Source: Marchantia polymorpha subsp. ruderalis (Eukaryota; Streptophyta; Marchantiopsida; Marchantiales; Marchantiaceae). From it: a DNA stretch of 64,000 nt. Below, in pieces: positions 32,769 to 62,581 of this stretch (its first letter is position 1; every line of letters starts with the position of its first letter). The notes under the pieces are model-generated. The model was not told the origin of the DNA and ran no database searches. It saw only the letters and a program-made list of their open reading frames with translations. The DNA is taken from the NCBI GenBank assembly GCA_037833965.1, contig AP031357.1, positions 14,156,001-14,220,000 of the forward strand, given 5' to 3'. The position numbers and the translations under genes were made by a program.

Positions 32769-34034
32769 TGTGGTAACCTAGTTTTACTTTTCTTTCTCGA
32801 AATGAGAAGTTTGAGAGATCTGATATACTTAATACCTCATAAAGTTTTCAATCAGTAACAAATTGATTTAGTTATGATCTTGATTGATAGATCTCGGCAC
32901 GCTCGTTCTACCGAGCTCAAGAACTCTTGAAACGGATAAGGGTTTACTGAGTTATGAAGTGTTTGGTATAGATAGACAAAGGCGCAGAAGGGCCTTCGGC
33001 CAAAGGAACCTCGGACTTCAGTTGTGAGGTACTTCGGACTTTGGACCTCGGCGAGGTACTTTGGCCTTAACGCCTTCGATCTTCAGTCTTCGAACTTCGG
33101 CGAGGTACTTCGGACTTTAGACTTCGGCGAGGAATCTCAGACCTCGGACTTCGGCGGAAAGGTATTTGGACTTCGGTCTTGGATCAAGGATCTTGCGGGA
33201 GCCATAACTTTGCGCTGGAGTGTCGGCTGTAGCTGAAATTTGGTGGGATTGTTGGTCTTAGCCGGCCGCAACGGCAAATTTTTAGCCTCAAAACTTGGAT
33301 CTGGAGCTGATAGAGAAGCTGGCGGCTCAGTGCAGTAGGTTTAGGGTTAGATTTAGGGTTAGGTTTAGGATTAGGTTCAGATTTAGGGTTAGGTTTAGGT
33401 CGCAAGTTAGAGGGAAAAGCAGCTGCCGACTCAACTGCTGTAGGACCTATTCGGAGCTTGCATCAGAGTGAGTGATAGTTTAGGGTTAGTTAGGAATAAA
33501 GTAGTCCAAGGCATTGGCCTTGGGTGTATTTTCTCAATCTAGTTTCTCAGTTTCGGAACTTTGTATTCTCTGCGCGTTTGTGAGTTGAGTGTGTTGATCA
33601 CCGCGTGAGAGGTACTTTGGTTTGTCAAAGATATCGCATCCAAAGTAGTAGCCCCAATTCAAATGTTTTGAAGTAGGGATTGGCTAGTGACAGGCTTTAA
33701 GCAAATACGCAATTGGCAGCTGCCTGCAGATCCTCTGAGTGTACTCCTTGGAAAATTTCCCCCTGAATCTTAGGTTGAGGTCGCGATCGACCTCTGAGTG
33801 TTGCAATTACTTGTTTCAAGTGTGTGTGTGTGTGTGTGTGTGTGTATTACGATACATTGTGTAACCTCCGAGCCGAACACCTGCAGTACTTCTGGAAGTG
33901 ATAGTAGCCTGAGAATTCAAATTCTTCAATAGACTGTTAAGAACGTGACAATTGGTACTCTTTGTGTTGTTTTTGTCCTCGTGGGATCGGATCTTTACCA
34001 TTATGCTCCATTTTGATATTTATCTGTCATTACA
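32769..34034 (+). mobile_element. Solo LTR, 1266 bp
   Basis: It begins TGTGGTAACC and ends GTCATTACA (TG...CA). A perfect 5-bp target duplication, ATCGT, flanks it at 32764-32768 and 34035-34039. Removing the LTR and one duplicate restores the coiled-coil reading frame (ELTDDR|NKEF). No internal retroelement sequence lies beside it, so it is a solo LTR left by recombination between two LTRs. Inside are repeated ACTTCGG/CTTCGGCGAGGTACTT motifs (about 33000-33180), a telomere-like tract and a TG microsatellite (about 33822-33845). Confidence 0.92.
33336..33399. repeat. Interstitial telomere-like tract
   Basis: Consecutive units of TTTAGGGTTAGG/TTTAGGATTAGG type are close variants of the plant telomere repeat TTTAGGG, here mostly with 6-bp and 12-bp spacing. 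It lies inside the solo LTR, so it was probably carried in with the element and not left by a chromosome-end fusion. Confidence 0.8.
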
Positions 34035-35163: not shown

Positions 35164-37311
35164 ACAAGAGATCAGTTGACAAGTCTTTGGATCTCCAAAG
35201 TCAGCTTATCTTGACAAGGCTTTACAAAGACTTGGTGAAGTCTAAGAAACGAGCTTTTTTGAGACGAAGCAAGAATCCTTGACAAAGGACTTGATAGGGA
35301 ATCCCAAATACTTTTGGAGACGGTTAGGTGTATGGTCTTCTAAACCTACTCTTGATCTCAAGAGTTTGATTGACTTTGCTAAAAAGCTTTATTTCTTTCC
35401 CGACGCTGCATCAATGCCTTGTTGTGAGATAACATCTGGCTTATTTTCTGAATCTGAGGTGATGACTCAAGTCATAAAATTAGCAAATGATAACAGAGGA
35501 TTTGGATGATCTTTCTATTGAACTTTTGAAGTGGGGAGGAGATGTTATTGGACCAATACTCACTAAAGCGTTAGAGAATGCTGCTATGTATGGTTTTACT
35601 TCAACTTGGTCTTTACGGAAGATTGTGCCTATTCACAAGTCAAGAAGGAAGGACTTGGTGACAAACTATCGCACTATCATGGTGTGTAGTGTTTTTGCCA
35701 AGTTGTTTGGCAAATTGGTGGAGTCAAAGTTGAGCACATGGACTGAATCTCATCGAAAGATAGCACGGTTTCAAGCAGGTTTTTGACCTACATACAACAC
35801 CATTGAACATATCTTGGCCTTGCGTGTTTTATGGAAGAAGTCGAAGGGCAATGGAAAAGCTTTGTTTGCGCCTTCATTGATTTTAAGAAATCTTTTAATA
35901 ACGTACCTTGTGAGCTATTATGGGAAAGGCTGCAAGTCATTAGAGTACCATCAGATCTTCTAGCAGCTGTGGCCACATTATACCATTATGTTCAAGCCAA
36001 GATCAACACTTCTCAAACTGAAGAGGTTTTGAGTAACATTAGAATGATTCAGGTTTGTCCTCTCTCTCCTACTCTATTTGGCGTTTTTATAGATGATATC
36101 AAAGAGTGGTTGGAGGCATGTGATAGTGAAGATGTCAAGCTTAGAAACTTTGTTATCAAAGCTCTTTTGTATGCAGATGATATCATATTACTAGCACGTG
36201 ATGCAATTAGTTTGGAGAAACACCTATATGCTTTGGCTAGCTTTTGTATCCAGAATCAGATGGAGGTAAATATAGAGAAGTCTAAAGTCATGATAGTTGA
36301 CACTAGATCCAAGTTTTCCTTCCATTACAAGGATCTACAATTAGAAAAAGTGAAGAGTTATAAATATCTAAGCATTGATTTTTCTAATGATTATAGTTGA
36401 GCACTTTGCGTGCAAAAGAGATTTGAAGGTGGTTACAAAGCTCTATATTCATTGTTAAATGGGTGTAGAAGAGCTCATCTAGTGTCTTGGAGTCTTAGTG
36501 AATTTTTATTCAGAAGCTTAGTGTTGCCTTTAGTATTGTATGGAATCCAAGTGTGGGGTTCTGGTTGTAAGAAGACAGGTTGGGAGCGTGTGGAAAGGGT
36601 GTGGAGAGGCTGCAAAAGATATTTCTACAAGAAGAATTGGGTGTGAGAAACCAAACTTCATATGTTATTCTTCTTGCGGAAACAGGTTGTTTACCTCTAG
36701 CGGCTGAAGCTCTATACTTGACCATCACTTACATCAGAAGGGTGAGATCTCTTGATGCTTCTCGCCTTCCTACTCAAGCTTTGAGTGCCACACATGCCAA
36801 AGTATGGTTAGAGTATGTGATAACTTGGTCTTTGAGGTGGAATGTGACTGAACGCGATTGGGACTTGCAACCTATAGCACTACGTGAACGTCTAAAGGAG
36901 GAGTTTTTGAACATTATTTGGAGCAAGCGCGACACAAAGATGCAGTTTTATCAACTTCATGTGAATCTTATGCTTGTTTATTGTAAACAGTATTACCTAC
37001 TTGCAAGAATCTCTACGTCCTTACATCATATTATTGCTAGGCATAGAACTGTATCTCATAGGCTTGGAATTGAGGAAGTACGTTGGCTTAATATTGATAG
37101 GAGTGAACGTATTTGTAGGCTATGTGATGGAAGAGAAGTTGAGAATGAAGAACATGTATTTCTTACTTGTACTAGATATGTGGAGATTAGAGTGTCTGAT
37201 AATATAAATGTAGAGAATTTCTATTCTTTGTTACAGTTAGTTCCTTTTGATTTAGGTTGTTATATTAGGGACATTATTAGTTATCATTCTAGTGCTTTTG
37301 GCACTAGTTAG
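35164..37311 (+). pseudogene. LINE reverse transcriptase and C-terminal region
   Basis: Motifs in order: IVPIHKSRRKDLVTNYRTI, then FAKLFGKLVESKL, FIDFKKSFNNVP (a FxDFxxAFDxV-like block with the aspartate position changed), VCPLSPTLFGVFIDDI, and the catalytic box LLYADDIILLA (about 36163-36195). Next come a thumb-like region (LPLVLYGIQVWGSG) and a CCHC zinc knuckle (CRLCDGREVENEEHVFLTC, about 37115-37170). Frame changes near 35790-35830 and 36600-36650, and stops after GF (35785) and NDYS (36398), break it. The YADD box is intact. Confidence 0.9.
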
Positions 37312-42266: not shown

Positions 42267-43005
42267 TTTACGTAACGAGCCAAATTGAGCTTGCTGGCAA
42301 TTCTGCTGCAGGTAAAAAGTCCTGATTTTGAACTTTATGCAGAACTTACACCACTCTCACCTTGAACCTCTAGATCTTCGTTTTATCAAGGTTTTTATCT
42401 AATGCTTCCGCTGTAACGCTCGCTGTTAGTTACAATTAGAACTCTTGTCATGCGCTTCGGTGTTGATATATAGGGACAAGCGCCCGAGGCCTGCTCTTTC
42501 GTTTCAATTTGCAGTACAACACTTGGGATAGATCCGTGGCATGCTTGCCGTCCTGCGGCGCTGCCTGACTTCAACGCTGTCCTTGTTTGAAGAAGATACA
42601 GACGTGCATGCATGGTTTTCAGTGTACTGACTTCGTACAAAACGATTTGCCGATTGCACATGAAAAGGAGAGGGAGAGAGAAAGAGAAAGAGTGAATTGT
42701 AAATGCAGAGATTTACGCGCACAATTCTAGACAGTGGTCGCTCGAGATTTGTAGGAGCACTGCAATGCAATGTACTTACTGCTACAAAACACTGACTCTG
42801 GAACGATTTGATTGATCCTGGAAGCAGTGTATGCCGAATAGTTCCAAAAGGCCAGTCATCGAAAGTTCTCTCAGGCATTTCGTATCGTGCAACCACCACC
42901 ACCACCACGGAAGTCGGAAATTACTGGGATCTGGGGTTACTGAGCTAGAAAGAATTCCTCGTGAAAAAGGCCGTGTCTGTATCTGGGGCCCATCCGCAAC
43001 ATAAG

Positions 43006-44568
43006 ATGGGACAGTCGCAGAACTCCAAGGGTCATCCATATGCAAGTATGAATTTAAAGTACGGCCATCCTGTGGAGTTTGTGAATGCGCACCAGCAGCA
43101 GCAGCAGGAACCAGTGTCCACTCGGTTGCTGGCCAACGTATTGTCGTCCAAAGCCAAGCGAATATCTGCAGGCATAGTGCTGATGAGCTTTCTGGCGATC
43201 CTCAATCTCGGAGCATTCTTCGCCGCTCTCAGAATCGGGCTCGTCTTCTACACTCCAGAAAGCGAAGGTCCGTCACTGGCAGTGAGAGGCTTCAACCACG
43301 ATTTCGACTATCCGGTCTGCTTGCTAGTGGCCATCGGTGACGACGGCGACAAACCCAACGAGCAGGCCGTGCCATATTCCGAGCTCTACCGGCTGACCGA
43401 TGCGGCGATCGACGAGCTGCGCCAAAGACCTCCGGCCACCAAGCTCCTACTGGCTGCAGATTACACGACCGTAGCCTGCAAGATGCTGAGGGACAGCTTG
43501 GAGCTGGTGGAATCACTGGCCGGGGTTGTGGAGCTCAGCTGCCAAACTCCAGGCCAGGCTTACAAAAATGTGGTGCATTCGGGGCACCAGAAAATTCGAT
43601 GCGGGACGACGGTGGTGGGCGATAGCGCTCGCTATGTGCCGCAGCTGACACTGGAATGGGCGCAGCTCATGCAGTGGCAGAGCCTGCGGGTGGTGAATCT
43701 GGACGACGAGGACCCGGCGCGAGCTGGCCCCGGCATTCCTCGAGAGAATTGGCGGCCCACGGTGGTGACGGCCTTCAGCACCAACCACTTCGCCGTGGGC
43801 TCGCTGCTGCTGCGCTCGCTCGCCAAGGCGGGCAAGGAAGCTGCGGACGCAGGGCTGTACAATGTGTCGGTGATTGCGTATCAGCTGGAGGAGTTCAATT
43901 CCACTCTGCAGCCGCTGCTGGACTGCGTGGTCCGCGAGATGAACGAGGAGTACAATGTGAACACCGAGCTTCGGCTCTTCAATTTCTCGGCCGTGCCGGC
44001 ATGGATGAGGATCAATGAGAGCCGAGGGTACAGCGGGACGGGCGAGTACGCCTGGAAGGTCGAGATCATTCACTCGGTGCTGGTGGAGAGGGGCTTCGTG
44101 CTGTGGGCCGATGCCGGGGGCCGCTTCACATTTCACGGGCTCATCGAGAGCTTGAACAACACTCTGGCCCATGGCTTCGCCAACAAGAACACGGTCGGAG
44201 TGCTGCCCAAGTGGGTGCACTCGGGCATGCTCAAATACTTCCGCTACAACTTCCACCATAACCCTCCCGTGCCCAATTGCGATGGCTCGGGCATCGGCTT
44301 CACGCTGGACAAGTACCAGAGCCTGGCCAGGCCCTGGTACGACTGCAGCATCACAAGGCAGTGCATCGCTCCGGACGGGTCCAGTCGAGCTAATCACCGG
44401 CAAGACCAATCGGCCCTCACCATTCTCACCAGCCTGAATGGCGACGTGTGCCAAGGGATCAGCTCGTCCGTCAAGAGGCACATGGACTCGCACCCTGGGG
44501 ATTTCTCCGGCACGAACCCCACCCGCTGCTACTCCGACCCTTTGCAAGTTTACGATGGCTTCTCATAG
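43006..44568 (+). CDS. Type II membrane protein, glycosyltransferase-like (DUF1647-like)
   Basis: An intact, intronless frame of 520 codons. The start is the first in-frame ATG (43006); the frame is open further upstream to a GTG near 42961, which is not a normal eukaryotic start. Residues 1-50 form a cytosolic tail with a short glutamine run (about 30-34) ending in KAKR; residues about 53-82 form one membrane anchor. The remainder should face the Golgi or ER lumen: it has five N-glycosylation sequons (NVS, NST, NFS, NES, NNT). The blocks TAFSTNHFAVGSLLLRSL, GEYAWKVEIIHSVL and VLWADAGGRFT resemble plant DUF1647-type proteins, which are probable glycosyltransferases. No substrate can be named. 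The coding sequence is far more GC-rich than its surroundings. The family is recalled from memory, so the fold is less sure than the gene itself. Confidence 0.85.
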   Translation: MGQSQNSKGHPYASMNLKYGHPVEFVNAHQQQQQEPVSTRLLANVLSSKAKRISAGIVLMSFLAILNLGAFFAALRIGLVFYTPESEGPSLAVRGFNHDFDYPVCLLVAIGDDGDKPNEQAVPYSELYRLTDAAIDELRQRPPATKLLLAADYTTVACKMLRDSLELVESLAGVVELSCQTPGQAYKNVVHSGHQKIRCGTTVVGDSARYVPQLTLEWAQLMQWQSLRVVNLDDEDPARAGPGIPRENWRPTVVTAFSTNHFAVGSLLLRSLAKAGKEAADAGLYNVSVIAYQLEEFNSTLQPLLDCVVREMNEEYNVNTELRLFNFSAVPAWMRINESRGYSGTGEYAWKVEIIHSVLVERGFVLWADAGGRFTFHGLIESLNNTLAHGFANKNTVGVLPKWVHSGMLKYFRYNFHHNPPVPNCDGSGIGFTLDKYQSLARPWYDCSITRQCIAPDGSSRANHRQDQSALTILTSLNGDVCQGISSSVKRHMDSHPGDFSGTNPTRCYSDPLQVYDGFS

Positions 44569-57596: not shown

Positions 57597-60500
57597 CTAG
57601 ATGCTGGAAATTTCAGCTTCTTTCGAGCCTGGTCGATATGCAATAAAAGCTCCGTCGTGAGAAAACGATCCAGGACTGAAGCTAGTAACTCCGGTAAAAT
57701 TAAACACCTTCTGTATCAGTCGATCCGCCAGCACTACCTGCAAAATATATATATATATATATAATGAAGATTACTGGAGAAGGAAAACTTATGCAATAGT
57801 TTCAACGATGTTAATATTGACACCAGTCGCAACGCCCGATGCATATGAAAGATGTGCACAACAGAACCAAGTGTATTTACCCTCAAATTCAGACTCACAA
57901 CTCGTGCTATTGATATGCCAGTATTCTTACCGTATGAGGTAAAGGATAAAGCCTGAGAACATGGTCTAGAGGCCAACTGATTGGCTGTGATGTAAGAGGC
58001 AGGGGACACAGATGGCTTTGGTGTAATACTGTGGCAACAAGCTGCGACAAGAAATTCATAACCACGAGGGACGAATCACTGTTGTTAGAAGACTTGAGGA
58101 AATAATAAAAGACAACGAATACGGTTGAAAGCAAATAGTAGAACAACTTGAAAGCCAATGATGACCGAAAGATGAGATTTGACGTACATGCTGGAAGTTA
58201 TCTTGAGTTTCTTCGTTAGATGGTGGTATGATACAATTTCGGCGCGTGCGGTACAGAATGTCGTCTCGAAATAAGACTATTTCCTGCGAGTAGAAGCGGA
58301 TCCTGTCATATCCGTGGCAGAGAAAGTTTTCAGTATGTCCGCTTTAATACGAAAACAAAAAACAACAAATATTTCCAAGTTGCTTCCAAGGCTGAGAATT
58401 AAAATCGAAGTACCTGCAAGGGTTACTCGCGAAAATGGAATTTGGAACATGCTTCAGAACCTCGTTGGTGAAAAATTTCGGTAAGGGAGGCCTTGGGAGA
58501 ACATTGGCGGGACCTGTCAACATCTCCCAAACGGTTATTCGATTACCAAGAGTGCACTCCAGAGATAGAGAGAAGTAAATCAGAAGATTTCATTTTGTTG
58601 ACAGATCTACACACTTAACAGGAAGAAGAAAATTGATACATTACAAGCATCCATGCACTTGAAGAAGACAACAGCCATCATATCTCTGATGTTTCTCCGG
58701 GAAGAACTTATTAAATGCTTGAATACACATGTAGATGAGTGAGGCAATGCCTGCTTACCGATATCGTCTGGACCTGGAATGAATATGAAGCGACTTGCTT
58801 CTTTGATACGAGGGTGAGCACTTATTACTTCACCAAGTTTTCCAAAGTGAGAACTGCGTGCGGGAAATGAAGTTCATTGTAAGAGGTTTACGAGTTTATC
58901 TTGGCTTTGTGAGTAAAAAAAGATTCATGAAAACGTTAGAGAAAGCAGATATCCAACAGCAAGTTAGAAGTCAGTAATCTAACAGCAAGTATTCAGCAAC
59001 AATCAACACTTCTCGATATAAGCCAGTGCATAAGTTAGGCAGCTCTACTGCACAACTCAACTAACTAGCCCGGACATACGATTTGCGAGCAGTTTTGAAA
59101 GTTATAAAACAATGTTTCTTCAGCCAAAACTCACCGAAGTTTAGCAAATTCATTGAAGGCACGATTGCACGGGTGACTGCAAAAGTTTCCCATAAATATA
59201 AAGAGAGAAGGTACCACTTCCAACGTCTCGTAACCGTCGAATACTTGTGTTAGCTTCTGCATAGTCTGCAAACCATGAAAGGATATGCTTTGAGGATCTT
59301 GACAGGTATGTAGCATAAAAGTACCCAAGAAAATTGTCTGACTAATAGTTCAGGGTTAAAACGGGAGTGAATTCAACGAAAAGAAACGCAAGAGAGGAAA
59401 CCATCCTGCTGCATAATAAAAACCAAGGATATTATCTGATTAGTAGATTAAGGTTAGAACGAAAAACTTTGAGCTATAAGAAAGGCAAGGTAGGGAACCA
59501 CCCTGCTACATGTACACCATGTAGCGTGGAGCACATAAAAACCGTATATACAATAATTGCCTACACTACCTTTGCGAAAGAGAGTCACTATACCAAGATA
59601 CTCTCAGATGGTGGAGGTAGACGTGCTCTAAAAGTTTTGTCTTGAAGTCTTGTCTTGTCTTGTCTTGTCTAAAAGTCTTGATCGAAAGTCTAAAGCCTAT
59701 TGTTCATTTGGAGATGTGTTTTTGGCCTCCAAATTAGAAAGGCATATGAGTTGAACAACAAGCTGATACTTGGAGACTCCGAACAAACCACTGACACAAG
59801 GATTTTCAGTCCTTTGCTCTAACCACCTGAGCTATCTAAACAATATTCATGTACAATCCCCCTAAAAGTTGAACCCTCTTCTCTGGCGATAAGTTCTATC
59901 TCTTTCAACACCACCATTTGCATTCTATATACCTCATTTCTTCTTCGTGCTTTTCAACTAGCACCTACAGTTTTACAGTATACAGTATGATATTACCGTA
60001 TTCGGGCTAAGACACACATATAATTACAATCGAACGAGGGTTATGTAGGGAGGGCAGTTAATTATAGGAAAATCAGATGCAAGTATAGAGGTATGTTCAG
60101 GTAGATGCAAACCAAAAGCCAAGATCAAAAGAGTATATATACACATATCTGCTGAAAACATCTACATGTGAAATCAGTAAAATTCAGTCTGTCGTGGTTA
60201 TTAGCGCTACCTCCTCATGATCGAGCCAGACCTCCGCGAGAATGATAAACATATCATTGGTGCTCTCCTCTATTTGCTCCAGTTTCATCTGTTAACAGGT
60301 CAAGAAATATACAACTGGGCAAACATTTGCAATATGACACGATATCACGTGTATCTAAGATCGTCTAGCTGCGTGAAGTGCAAACTGAGATGCCCATGCA
60401 GAGCGTTGTAGATGTGAACTTCCATATCCACGCTGTGTTGGAGTTTAGTTGACAGATTCATTCTACCCATGGATTTTCGTCGATGTTCTAAACATATATT

Positions 60501-62581
60501 CCTTCAAGGCATTCAACGGGTTGAAAGAGGCAGGAAAAATGAGCTATATATTAAATGACGCCAGGAGAACATGAAGCAAAAACAGGAAACTCATTGTATG
60601 CAAACTGAGATACCTGTAAACGGCATCATTTGGAAGGCAAAAAGGATACTGTCTCTTCGCTATTCAGCACTCCAGCACCAAAACAGTCGAGACCGGCAGT
60701 TACCGATAACGAAACACTTCTGTGTTCCAGAGGAGGGAATCCCATGGTACGTATCTGTGAGCAGTCATTACTACGGCTTCATGCTCACCATTATGAAAAT
60801 CGACGCATTTATCAAGATAATCGAAATGAGAGAATTTATCAGATGACTGAGAAACGCATGTAGATAAAGGGAAGGAGGAGAGGTGAACCTTGAAGACTCC
60901 ATTCGTCATGTACTCCCCTTCTGCTACTATGACACAATTCTCTGTAAAAAATCCTGTTGTGATCTTGTGGATATTCGCAGCTAAGGAAATGATGGACATG
61001 AGGATGCTGTTACAAAAGTGAACGTCAACTATTATGCAGAACTCATACACAAGGTAAAAAATGGCGGAAGTGCTGGTCTCATTCTATCAAAAAGAAGCAA
61101 GGCATTGTCATTCTTAGAGGATATTGCTTCAGAAAAGTCAACTGGGACGGAACCAGTAAGATCTTCCAGGCAGAATCGGTCGTCTTCCACTTGGTAAATT
61201 GTACCCATCACCCAGTGCTTTCCAGGGCACCCTATCAAGCCTTGTAGAGGCGTCAACTGGAGTTGGACAGCAAATGAGATATAAGGCAAAGAGGCCATTT
61301 TAGATAGAATGAAAAGAAGCAACCAGGAACATGTACCTCGATTCAAGGAGAGTCGCTATTGGTTTCAGAATCTACTTCACACTAATACATAAGTAAACTA
61401 TTCCTGCTGCGTTTTCAGGAACTTCACAAAGTTGCGAAACCAAATCAAAGAGCTGAAAGAGCAAATGACGTTAAGCCGCAAGAACATTCAAATTGCCAAC
61501 TTCCAACGCATGCACAGGGAGCATGAATCTGCGCATGTGCATGATACACTAGTGGGCTGAAGTTGCAACCCACTATTCATCTGAAGCCAGGGGGTGAATT
61601 TACGAGACAATTTTAAAGAATTGAACTTATGTAGGCTAACCTCGCAGCTGCCAGTTGCAGAATTGTTTCTACCGAAGGAAGGTTTGGTGAAGTGCCTGTC
61701 ACGCAAAACACGCTGTTGGAGTAATTGAAATCGGTCTCTGTACAGAGCTGCTTTAGCTGATGCTTCTCCGTGATTTGTCGGTAAATCAGGACACCTATGA
61801 ACATGCACGAGAACTTTACTTAAATTTTTTGTTTGCGTAGTAGAGTAGCGACACACCAATTTTGTAACGCTTCTGGACTTCGGAGCCTGTGAATTGAAAG
61901 ACGCGCCCTGCTAAACAAACCCTTGAATGCACAAATAAGAGGGCAATCTTGAGTTTTATATATACAGCTTAGTCTACCTGTACAGCAGTGGAAGCAGTTA
62001 AAGATTATCTTACTATGGTCAGGTGAGGTCTTACCTCTGGCTGAAAATCAACTTCCAGCGCAGTGGGGGAGAAGAACTTCCTACTAATACATTGCTCACG
62101 AATCACGAACTGTATGATCCTTAAGAGATCTAAGCCCACCTGTAGAAAGACTTTCTGACGTGATCGTAGCACAATTTGGGGAGATTAAAAACATCCACGA
62201 CGATCAGCCGATTTTGTTCGTGGACGTCCCCGCCTGCTGCGGCGGATAAAACCTCCAGAATTGCATCCTTGCTCACGAAGTTGCTCTTCACTGTTGAATC
62301 ACGACAATGAACAATTCAACAGAAGAACGAGAATTCATTTCAAAAAAATCACTGACAGGGAGCAGCTTCGAGGGAAAGCTGACAAGAGCACATGTGCAAT
62401 TGAAACCCTTACGTGAAGTCTTATCCATCTCGGAAAAAATGTCACTCAAGGCTTGATCTACGTTGGGCGCCTCTTCCAAGTGGCTCATGACCGCTTTTAA
62501 TGCATCTAGCGTCAGAGTGAGTCCACGCATCTTGAATTTTTGCTGCACCTTCCTCATGTTTTGCTGCTCCTGGACCCCCAT
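57597..62581 (-). CDS. POLE2: DNA polymerase epsilon subunit B (POLE2/DPB2), 13 exons
   Basis: This is the second subunit of the leading-strand replicative polymerase; it is also needed to assemble the CMG replicative helicase at origins. Exons (minus strand): 62581-62413, 62290-62140, 61794-61641, 61256-61125, 60966-60889, 60754-60650, 60288-60211, 59265-59135, 58853-58759, 58513-58414, 58302-58188, 58041-57931, 57737-57597. They join in phase to 519 residues, close to the usual 525-530. The N-terminal helical domain covers about residues 1-75. An OB-fold follows (WVMGTIYQVEDDRFCLEDL, KITTGFFTEN, GFPPLEHR), then the inactive phosphoesterase domain (PSLFIFMGNFCSHPCN, FIFIPGPDD, FASNPCR, HQSHLCPLPL, LRLYPLPHT, FSPGSFSHDGAFIAYRPG). 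Two introns are U12-type. The start is the first ATG of exon 1, 24 bases before KVQQKFKMRG, the conserved N-terminus. No break is seen, so the gene should be functional. Confidence 0.96.
57742..57764. repeat. AT microsatellite at a splice acceptor
   Basis: A run of alternating AT ends 4 bases before the acceptor of the last POLE2 intron (TTTTGCAG on the minus strand), so length changes here would alter the tract just upstream of that splice site. Confidence 0.85.
59648..59670. repeat. TCTTG microsatellite
   Basis: Four perfect TCTTG units lie within POLE2 intron 7, near the tRNA-like sequence. Confidence 0.9.
59786..59841 (-). pseudogene. Mitochondrial-type tRNA-Phe(GAA) fragment
   Basis: On the minus strand the sequence runs GTTTAGATAGCTCAGGTGG, TTAGAGCAAAGGA, CTGAAAA (anticodon loop, GAA), TCCTTGTGTCAGTGGTT. 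The acceptor 5' half, D arm and anticodon arm match plant organellar tRNA-Phe, closest in memory to the native mitochondrial gene. The T arm and 3' acceptor half are missing or scrambled, so it cannot form a tRNA. It is best read as a piece of mitochondrial DNA inserted in POLE2 intron 7. Confidence 0.75.
60289..60649 (-). other. U12-type GT-AG intron in POLE2
   Basis: Intron 6 starts GTATCCTTT, the exact U12 5' splice-site consensus. Its 3' end has TTTCTTGAC, one mismatch from the U12 branch-site consensus TTCCTTRAY, with the branch A 12 bases from the junction. There is no polypyrimidine tract. The flanking exons join in phase 0 as NSEET|MKLEQ, matching the family. Confidence 0.92.
60967..61124 (-). 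other. U12-type AT-AC intron in POLE2
   Basis: Intron 4 starts ATATCCTCT (consensus ATATCCTT) and ends CCAC, with TTCCTTAGC as probable branch site. No GT-AG alternative keeps the frame. Joining here gives VDFSEA|KITTGFFTEN, exactly the conserved POLE2 sequence. It is a 158-bp minor-spliceosome intron. Confidence 0.88.

Follow-up and report, generated by a model that had tools for sequence, protein, structure and literature searches.

The gene for DNA polymerase epsilon subunit 2 (POLE2/DPB2) of Marchantia polymorpha subsp. ruderalis appears to carry two U12-type introns, one with AT-AC and one with GT-AG ends. The gene lies on the minus strand of a stretch of 64,000 nucleotides that we have analysed (contig AP031357.1 of assembly GCA_037833965.1, positions 14,156,001 to 14,220,000), and "the window" below means this whole stretch. 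U12-type introns are a rare kind of intron and are removed by the minor spliceosome. The assignment of both introns to this type is well supported by their donor and branch-site sequences and by the agreement of their junctions with human POLE2, and from these we infer that they are actually spliced by the minor spliceosome. Very probably, therefore, this POLE2 gene is an ordinary one, with the AT-AC and GT-AG introns removed by the minor (U12-dependent) spliceosome and the major spliceosome acting on the other introns that were scored; the gene would then need the minor spliceosome. The only U6atac small nuclear RNA (snRNA) detectable in the same genome has an altered donor-pairing element, which we consider more interesting than the POLE2 introns themselves.

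The POLE2 gene and its introns

The gene occupies positions 57597-62581 (start codon ATG at 62581-62579, picked by eye; stop codon TAG at 57599-57597). By its subunit B domain and its full-length similarity it is POLE2/DPB2: the conceptual protein matched human POLE2 (5vbn_A) by phmmer with an E-value of 1.3e-82, covering residues 12-542 of 544, and the Pfam domain DNA_pol_E_B (PF04042) with an E-value of 7.4e-49. The domain Dpoe2NT (PF12213) at the N-terminus reached 21.6 bits, below the cut-off of 24. The last ten exons are joined in frame without a stop. Since the exon structure between 62034 and 61257 is not settled, the introns numbered 4 and 6 in a preliminary description of this DNA may be about the sixth and the eighth. 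The stretch 60200-61260 gave a single match in the genome (241 Mb in nine contigs; the window corresponds to C8:14156001-14220000).

The AT-AC intron (61124-60967, minus strand; 158 nucleotides, phase 0) follows the exon 61125-61256, which ends with ...GSVPVDFSEA, and precedes the exon 60889-60966, which starts with KITTGFFTEN...; after its removal the predicted spliced sequence reads ...GACTTTTCTGAAGCA joined directly to AAGATCACAACAGG.... Its terminal sequences are ATATCCTCTA on the donor side and ATATCCAC on the 3' side, with CAC at the end. The donor ATATCCTCT has one mismatch in nine to RTATCCTT(T), and the branch-site-like sequence TTCCTTAGC (60980-60988, with 13 nucleotides to the intron end) has one mismatch to TTCCTTRAY, located at the usual branch A, where a G is found and a neighbouring A remains. 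Donor and branch sites were scored over the window with a consensus matrix whose weights were set by ourselves. Seven of the 127,984 window sites have donor scores equal to or higher than that at 61124 (itself counted), and 16 sites reach the branch score. For ranking the junctions, all introns that could be placed between the flanking exons with the frame kept and with GT-AG, GC-AG, AT-AC or AT-AG ends were compared. The AT-AC junction ranks first among 328 such introns against human POLE2, with a score of 114 (the runner-up, which uses the same donor, has 102).

The GT-AG intron (60649-60289, minus strand; 361 nucleotides, phase 0) is preceded by the exon 60650-60754, which ends with ...GVLNSEET, and followed by the exon 60211-60288, which starts with MKLEQIEEST.... 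Its terminal sequences are GTATCCTTTT on the donor side and TTAACAG on the 3' side, the 3' end thus being CAG. The donor GTATCCTTT matches RTATCCTT(T) exactly and is the top of the 127,984 window sites. The branch-site-like sequence TTTCTTGAC (60299-60307, with 10 nucleotides to the intron end) has one mismatch to TTCCTTRAY, its score being reached by 41 window sites, and its A is the twelfth base from the intron end. This junction is the first of 81 frame-keeping introns against human POLE2 (104; runner-up 96). The two introns are separated by a U2-like intron (60755-60888, minus strand; GTTCAC...CAG) with a U12 donor score of -11.6.

Twelve POLE2 introns were scored, namely those outside the region between 61857 and 61257. 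Strong U12 scores for both donor and branch site were obtained for these two, and for neither signal in the other ten, whose donor scores range from -5.0 to -16.3. The claim of the preliminary description that one POLE2 gene has two U12-type introns has therefore been borne out by the donor and branch signals, both introns scoring high with the consensus matrix, and by the best human-supported junctions. The coordinates given there proved exact, and so did the AT-AC ends of the first intron and, for the second, the GT-AG ends, the exact consensus donor and the branch site 12 bases from the end.

As a separate observation, a sequence that by eye looks like a worn tRNA-derived one (tagctcaggtggttagagcaaaggactgaaaatcc) is found inside the long POLE2 intron at 59785-59850 on the minus strand; ARAGORN and Rfam reported nothing at this position.

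Minor-spliceosome snRNA genes and the altered U6atac

Genome searches gave matches over the Rfam cut-offs for U12 (101.8 bits), U11 (60.0 bits) and U6atac, the best U6atac match (L003; G000:C5:12818140-12818264, minus strand) having 94.6 bits against a cut-off of 33 and covering model positions 1-126 of RF00619. The U12 snRNA retains GTAAGGAA, and the 5' end of U11 retains AAAAGG. The three genes have in common a CCATAA between -63 and -68 and a TATA between -27 and -31 (-65 and -27 for the U12 gene, L002; -63 and -31/-29 for U6atac, L003; -68 and -30 for the U11 gene, L011), and this shared pair is perhaps the snRNA upstream element of this plant. The upstream sequence element of Arabidopsis is RTCCCACATCG, and no copy of it within two mismatches was found upstream of the snRNA genes.

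The gene L003 is like the Rfam U6atac model in its full-length match and in its AGAGA and AAGGUUAGCA stretch, and differs from the consensus at positions 12-14, which are GCC instead of AAG; the consensus donor-pairing element AAAGGAGAGA is thereby replaced by AGCCGAGAGA. Because the rest of the sequence and structure is U6atac-like, L003 is best read as a U6atac with an altered donor-pairing element. In a wider context, TTGAGCCGAGAGA is present in 12 of the 13 matches listed where the Rfam consensus has UGAAAGGAGAGA, and the thirteenth match (L043) is decayed and reads TTGAACCAAGGGA. Among these 13 copies, L003 alone has both CCATAA and TATA at snRNA-like distances. None of the other twelve (L004-L010 and L039-L043) has both elements, L004 having CCATAA at -106 and some copies having TATA elsewhere. 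Eleven of the twelve start within five bases from the first base of the RNA, and eleven end at positions 58-118 of 125, as retrocopies of the transcript would. Since copies that lack this promoter, start at the RNA start and are cut short at the 3' side are retrocopy-like, the transcript that was repeatedly copied would have carried GCC; L039 and L040 have identical flanks and thus represent one duplicated copy. We infer that L003 is the expressed U6atac gene.

A canonical U6atac was also searched for elsewhere in the genome with AAAGGAGAGAAGGTTAGCA (19 bases), of which no exact copy was found. With up to three mismatches there were 91 genome matches, as compared with 99 in the reversed control, and ten of the 91, each with AGCCGAGAGA, belong to the U6atac copies already described. 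The sole match with one mismatch (C6:5472590) was rejected as a canonical U6atac, no U6atac being recognizable around it by eye, and neither it nor any of the three matches with two mismatches is among the 13 Rfam matches. Scans of IMG/VR gave zero for both the altered and the canonical 20-mer, which is uninformative about plants. In our literature search, whose coverage was partial, no report treating minor spliceosome, snRNA, liverwort and U6atac together was found.

Two further introns of the same genome, located by protein homology, were used as controls. The AT-AC intron of CBP20 (L046:2050-2362; 313 nucleotides) joins DYDPG and RGGYGKLV, and has the donor ATATCCATC with A at +7, the exact consensus branch site TTCCTTAAC and the end CTAC. 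It has been described in ten land plants, one of them a liverwort (PMC5932401), and is a positive control within this genome. The other, an intron of 138 nucleotides with GT-AG ends, lies in a QQT1/GPN2-like gene (L056, minus strand); it joins NDTLP and YECAV and reads GTATCCTGA...AACCTTGAACTTCGCCCAG. QQT1 is a U12 gene in Arabidopsis (PMC3422263), the likeness being drawn at the level of the gene. This intron is only probably U12-type because of its weak branch site, and is a weaker second control. An attempt at collecting U12 introns by strong branch sites (TTTCCTTAACT...YAG) was abandoned, since 23 genome matches against 51 in the reversed control represent no enrichment; one of the 23 (L022) has an RTATCCTTT donor within 1 kb, its reading frame is unconvincing, and it has not been counted.

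In human cells, donor C5C6 has been reported to pair with U6atac G14G15, and a CC5/6GG donor to be rescued by U6atac GG14/15CC plus U11 GG6/7CC (PMC4980772); U11 at the donor is replaced by U6atac (PMC3584512). When the standard register is applied to the altered U6atac and extended by hand, the pairs U4-A16 and C5-G15 are kept, C6 is placed opposite C14 and U7 opposite C13. Two of the five U6atac-donor pairs are thus broken by GCC, and the base at donor +8, which is C for the AT-AC and U for the GT-AG intron, is able to pair with G12. Energies calculated with RNAduplex for the altered versus the Rfam consensus U6atac are -2.5 versus -6.8 kcal/mol for the GT-AG donor and -1.2 versus -3.4 for the CBP20 donor. 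For the AT-AC donor they are -4.6 versus -4.7 with off-register pairing, and since these values are nearly equal, the energy argument is valid for one POLE2 intron only. RTATCC is kept in all four donors (three of firm U12-type introns and one of a probable one). In the order POLE2 AT-AC, POLE2 GT-AG, CBP20 and QQT1-like, the donor base is T, T, A, T at +7 and C, T, T, G at +8; with T in three of four and two of four, respectively, four donors are too few to call these positions relaxed.

We slightly favour the reading that the minor spliceosome of this plant removes RTATCC introns even though the matching element has been lost, with GCC in place of AAG at 12-14, from the only U6atac that could be detected. 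On this reading the donor helix needed in human cells would be reduced to about two Watson-Crick pairs, U11 would determine the choice of donor, and +7 and +8 would be drifting. RTATCC donors would be paired by U11 and TTCCTTRAY-like branch sites by U12, U11 would then be replaced by U6atac, and catalysis would follow. Since in the standard register a U6atac with GCC at 12-14 can pair only with U4 and C5 of these donors and, through G12, with a C or U at +8, donor choice would probably depend mainly on U11. The change at position 14 (and 12-13) overlaps the GG14/15CC mutation used in suppressor assays in human cells. If the altered U6atac is the expressed one, it would allow a test of how much pairing between U6atac and donor is needed by the minor spliceosome.

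Alternative explanations

Several points weigh against removal of both POLE2 introns by the minor spliceosome. Against yeast Dpb2, a comparison covering the AT-AC junction only, this junction scores 72 and is surpassed by three AT-AG alternatives with 73 each, so that the 3' end of the intron rests on the human comparison. The preliminary description had claimed exact protein alignment at both junctions; this held for the AT-AC junction, across which the human alignment is ungapped, and failed for the GT-AG junction, where the alignment has a one-residue gap. In 20 random sequences generated by a first-order Markov model fitted to the window and searched with the same thresholds, a mean of 3.25 donor-branch-acceptor pairs (range 0-10) was found. 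The real window has three, of which two are the introns themselves and the third combines the donor of the first intron with the branch site of the second. We have therefore rejected the motif pair as significant by itself, and the evidence is its placement at protein-supported junctions. The branch site of the QQT1-like control has three mismatches, and the U6atac found is without the canonical donor-pairing element. Finally, U4atac gave no match in the genome with RF00618, while U11, U12 and U6atac are present; Arabidopsis U4atac was likewise missed by BLAST with human U4atac (PMC545797).

Among the alternatives, the one that survives best is that the two introns form a regulatory switch, following the preliminary description, according to which two such introns would tie polymerase epsilon supply to minor-spliceosome activity. 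This is consistent with the naming of Pole2 among the genes with affected U12 introns in mouse Zrsr1/Zrsr2 mutants (PMC7312986), and with earlier reports linking minor splicing to proliferation in animals and plants, recounted in a 2023 pan-eukaryotic survey (PMC10639083). The clustering of several U12 introns in one gene is, however, general and already known (PMC7367187), and we consider a switch unlikely. The 2023 survey argued for largely neutral evolution, with the functional bias of minor-intron genes largely explained by gene age (PMC10639083).

Less probable is the explanation that the GT-AG intron alone is of U12 type, and that splicing at the break at 61124 uses other sites (such as AT-AG at 61124-60964 or GC-AG at 61127-60964) or the major spliceosome. 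With the AT-AG alternative at 61124-60964 the reading frame is retained at the cost of one residue, and the scores are 102 against human POLE2 and 73 against yeast Dpb2; that TTCCTTAGC has G in place of the usual branch A also points in this direction. The AT-AG alternative uses, however, the same U12-like donor, and the AT-AC junction gives the ungapped human alignment with the top score of 328, the donor and branch site each being one mismatch from the U12 consensus. That two ordinary introns happen to look like U12 introns by chance is hardly credible in spite of the similar pairs in random sequences, since random pairs are not at protein-supported junctions whereas both POLE2 introns rank first (of 328 and 81), and since only two of the 12 scored junctions are strong in donor and branch.

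Known U12-type introns and other features of the window

Under the preferred reading of two introns spliced by the minor spliceosome, the novelty of the POLE2 introns is low and they are an extension of known biology, because a U12 intron has been reported in mouse Pole2 (PMC7312986) and U12 clustering is known already. The likeness to mouse is at the level of the gene, which has a minor intron there too; the position of a mouse or human POLE2 U12 intron was not found in the literature searched, and PMC5538549, in which POLE2/DPB2 and U12 are mentioned separately, does not connect the two. Judged by this likeness of gene, both introns would be old. AT-AC introns make up 26% of Arabidopsis U12 introns (PMC7367187), and so the presence of two subtypes in one gene is unremarkable. 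More than one U12 intron is likewise found in other gene families, SCN, CACN1 and Na+/H+ antiporters (PMC2831892, PMC2426677), and the antiporters of plants and animals have two U12 intron positions in common (PMC2426677). The plant U12-type introns of CBP20 (intron 4), QQT1 and NHX6 (PMC5932401, PMC3422263) likewise have RTATCC donors and a 3'-proximal branch site of TTCCTTRAY type, with AT-AC and GT-AG ends side by side; unlike in these, the host here is POLE2, with one U2-like intron between two U12-type ones. With the POLE2 introns there would be one more instance of a replication gene that has minor introns, and the transcript may be a place to compare how AT-AC and GT-AG minor introns respond to minor-spliceosome supply.

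Elsewhere in the window, a short interstitial telomere-like repeat with units like TAGGGTT is found at 33336-33400. At 35831-37311 on the plus strand, two open reading frames of 189 and 243 amino acids look by eye like a worn reverse transcriptase of a non-long-terminal-repeat retrotransposon. An intronless open reading frame of 535 amino acids at 42961-44568 on the plus strand resembles, again by eye, a glycosyltransferase-type membrane protein.

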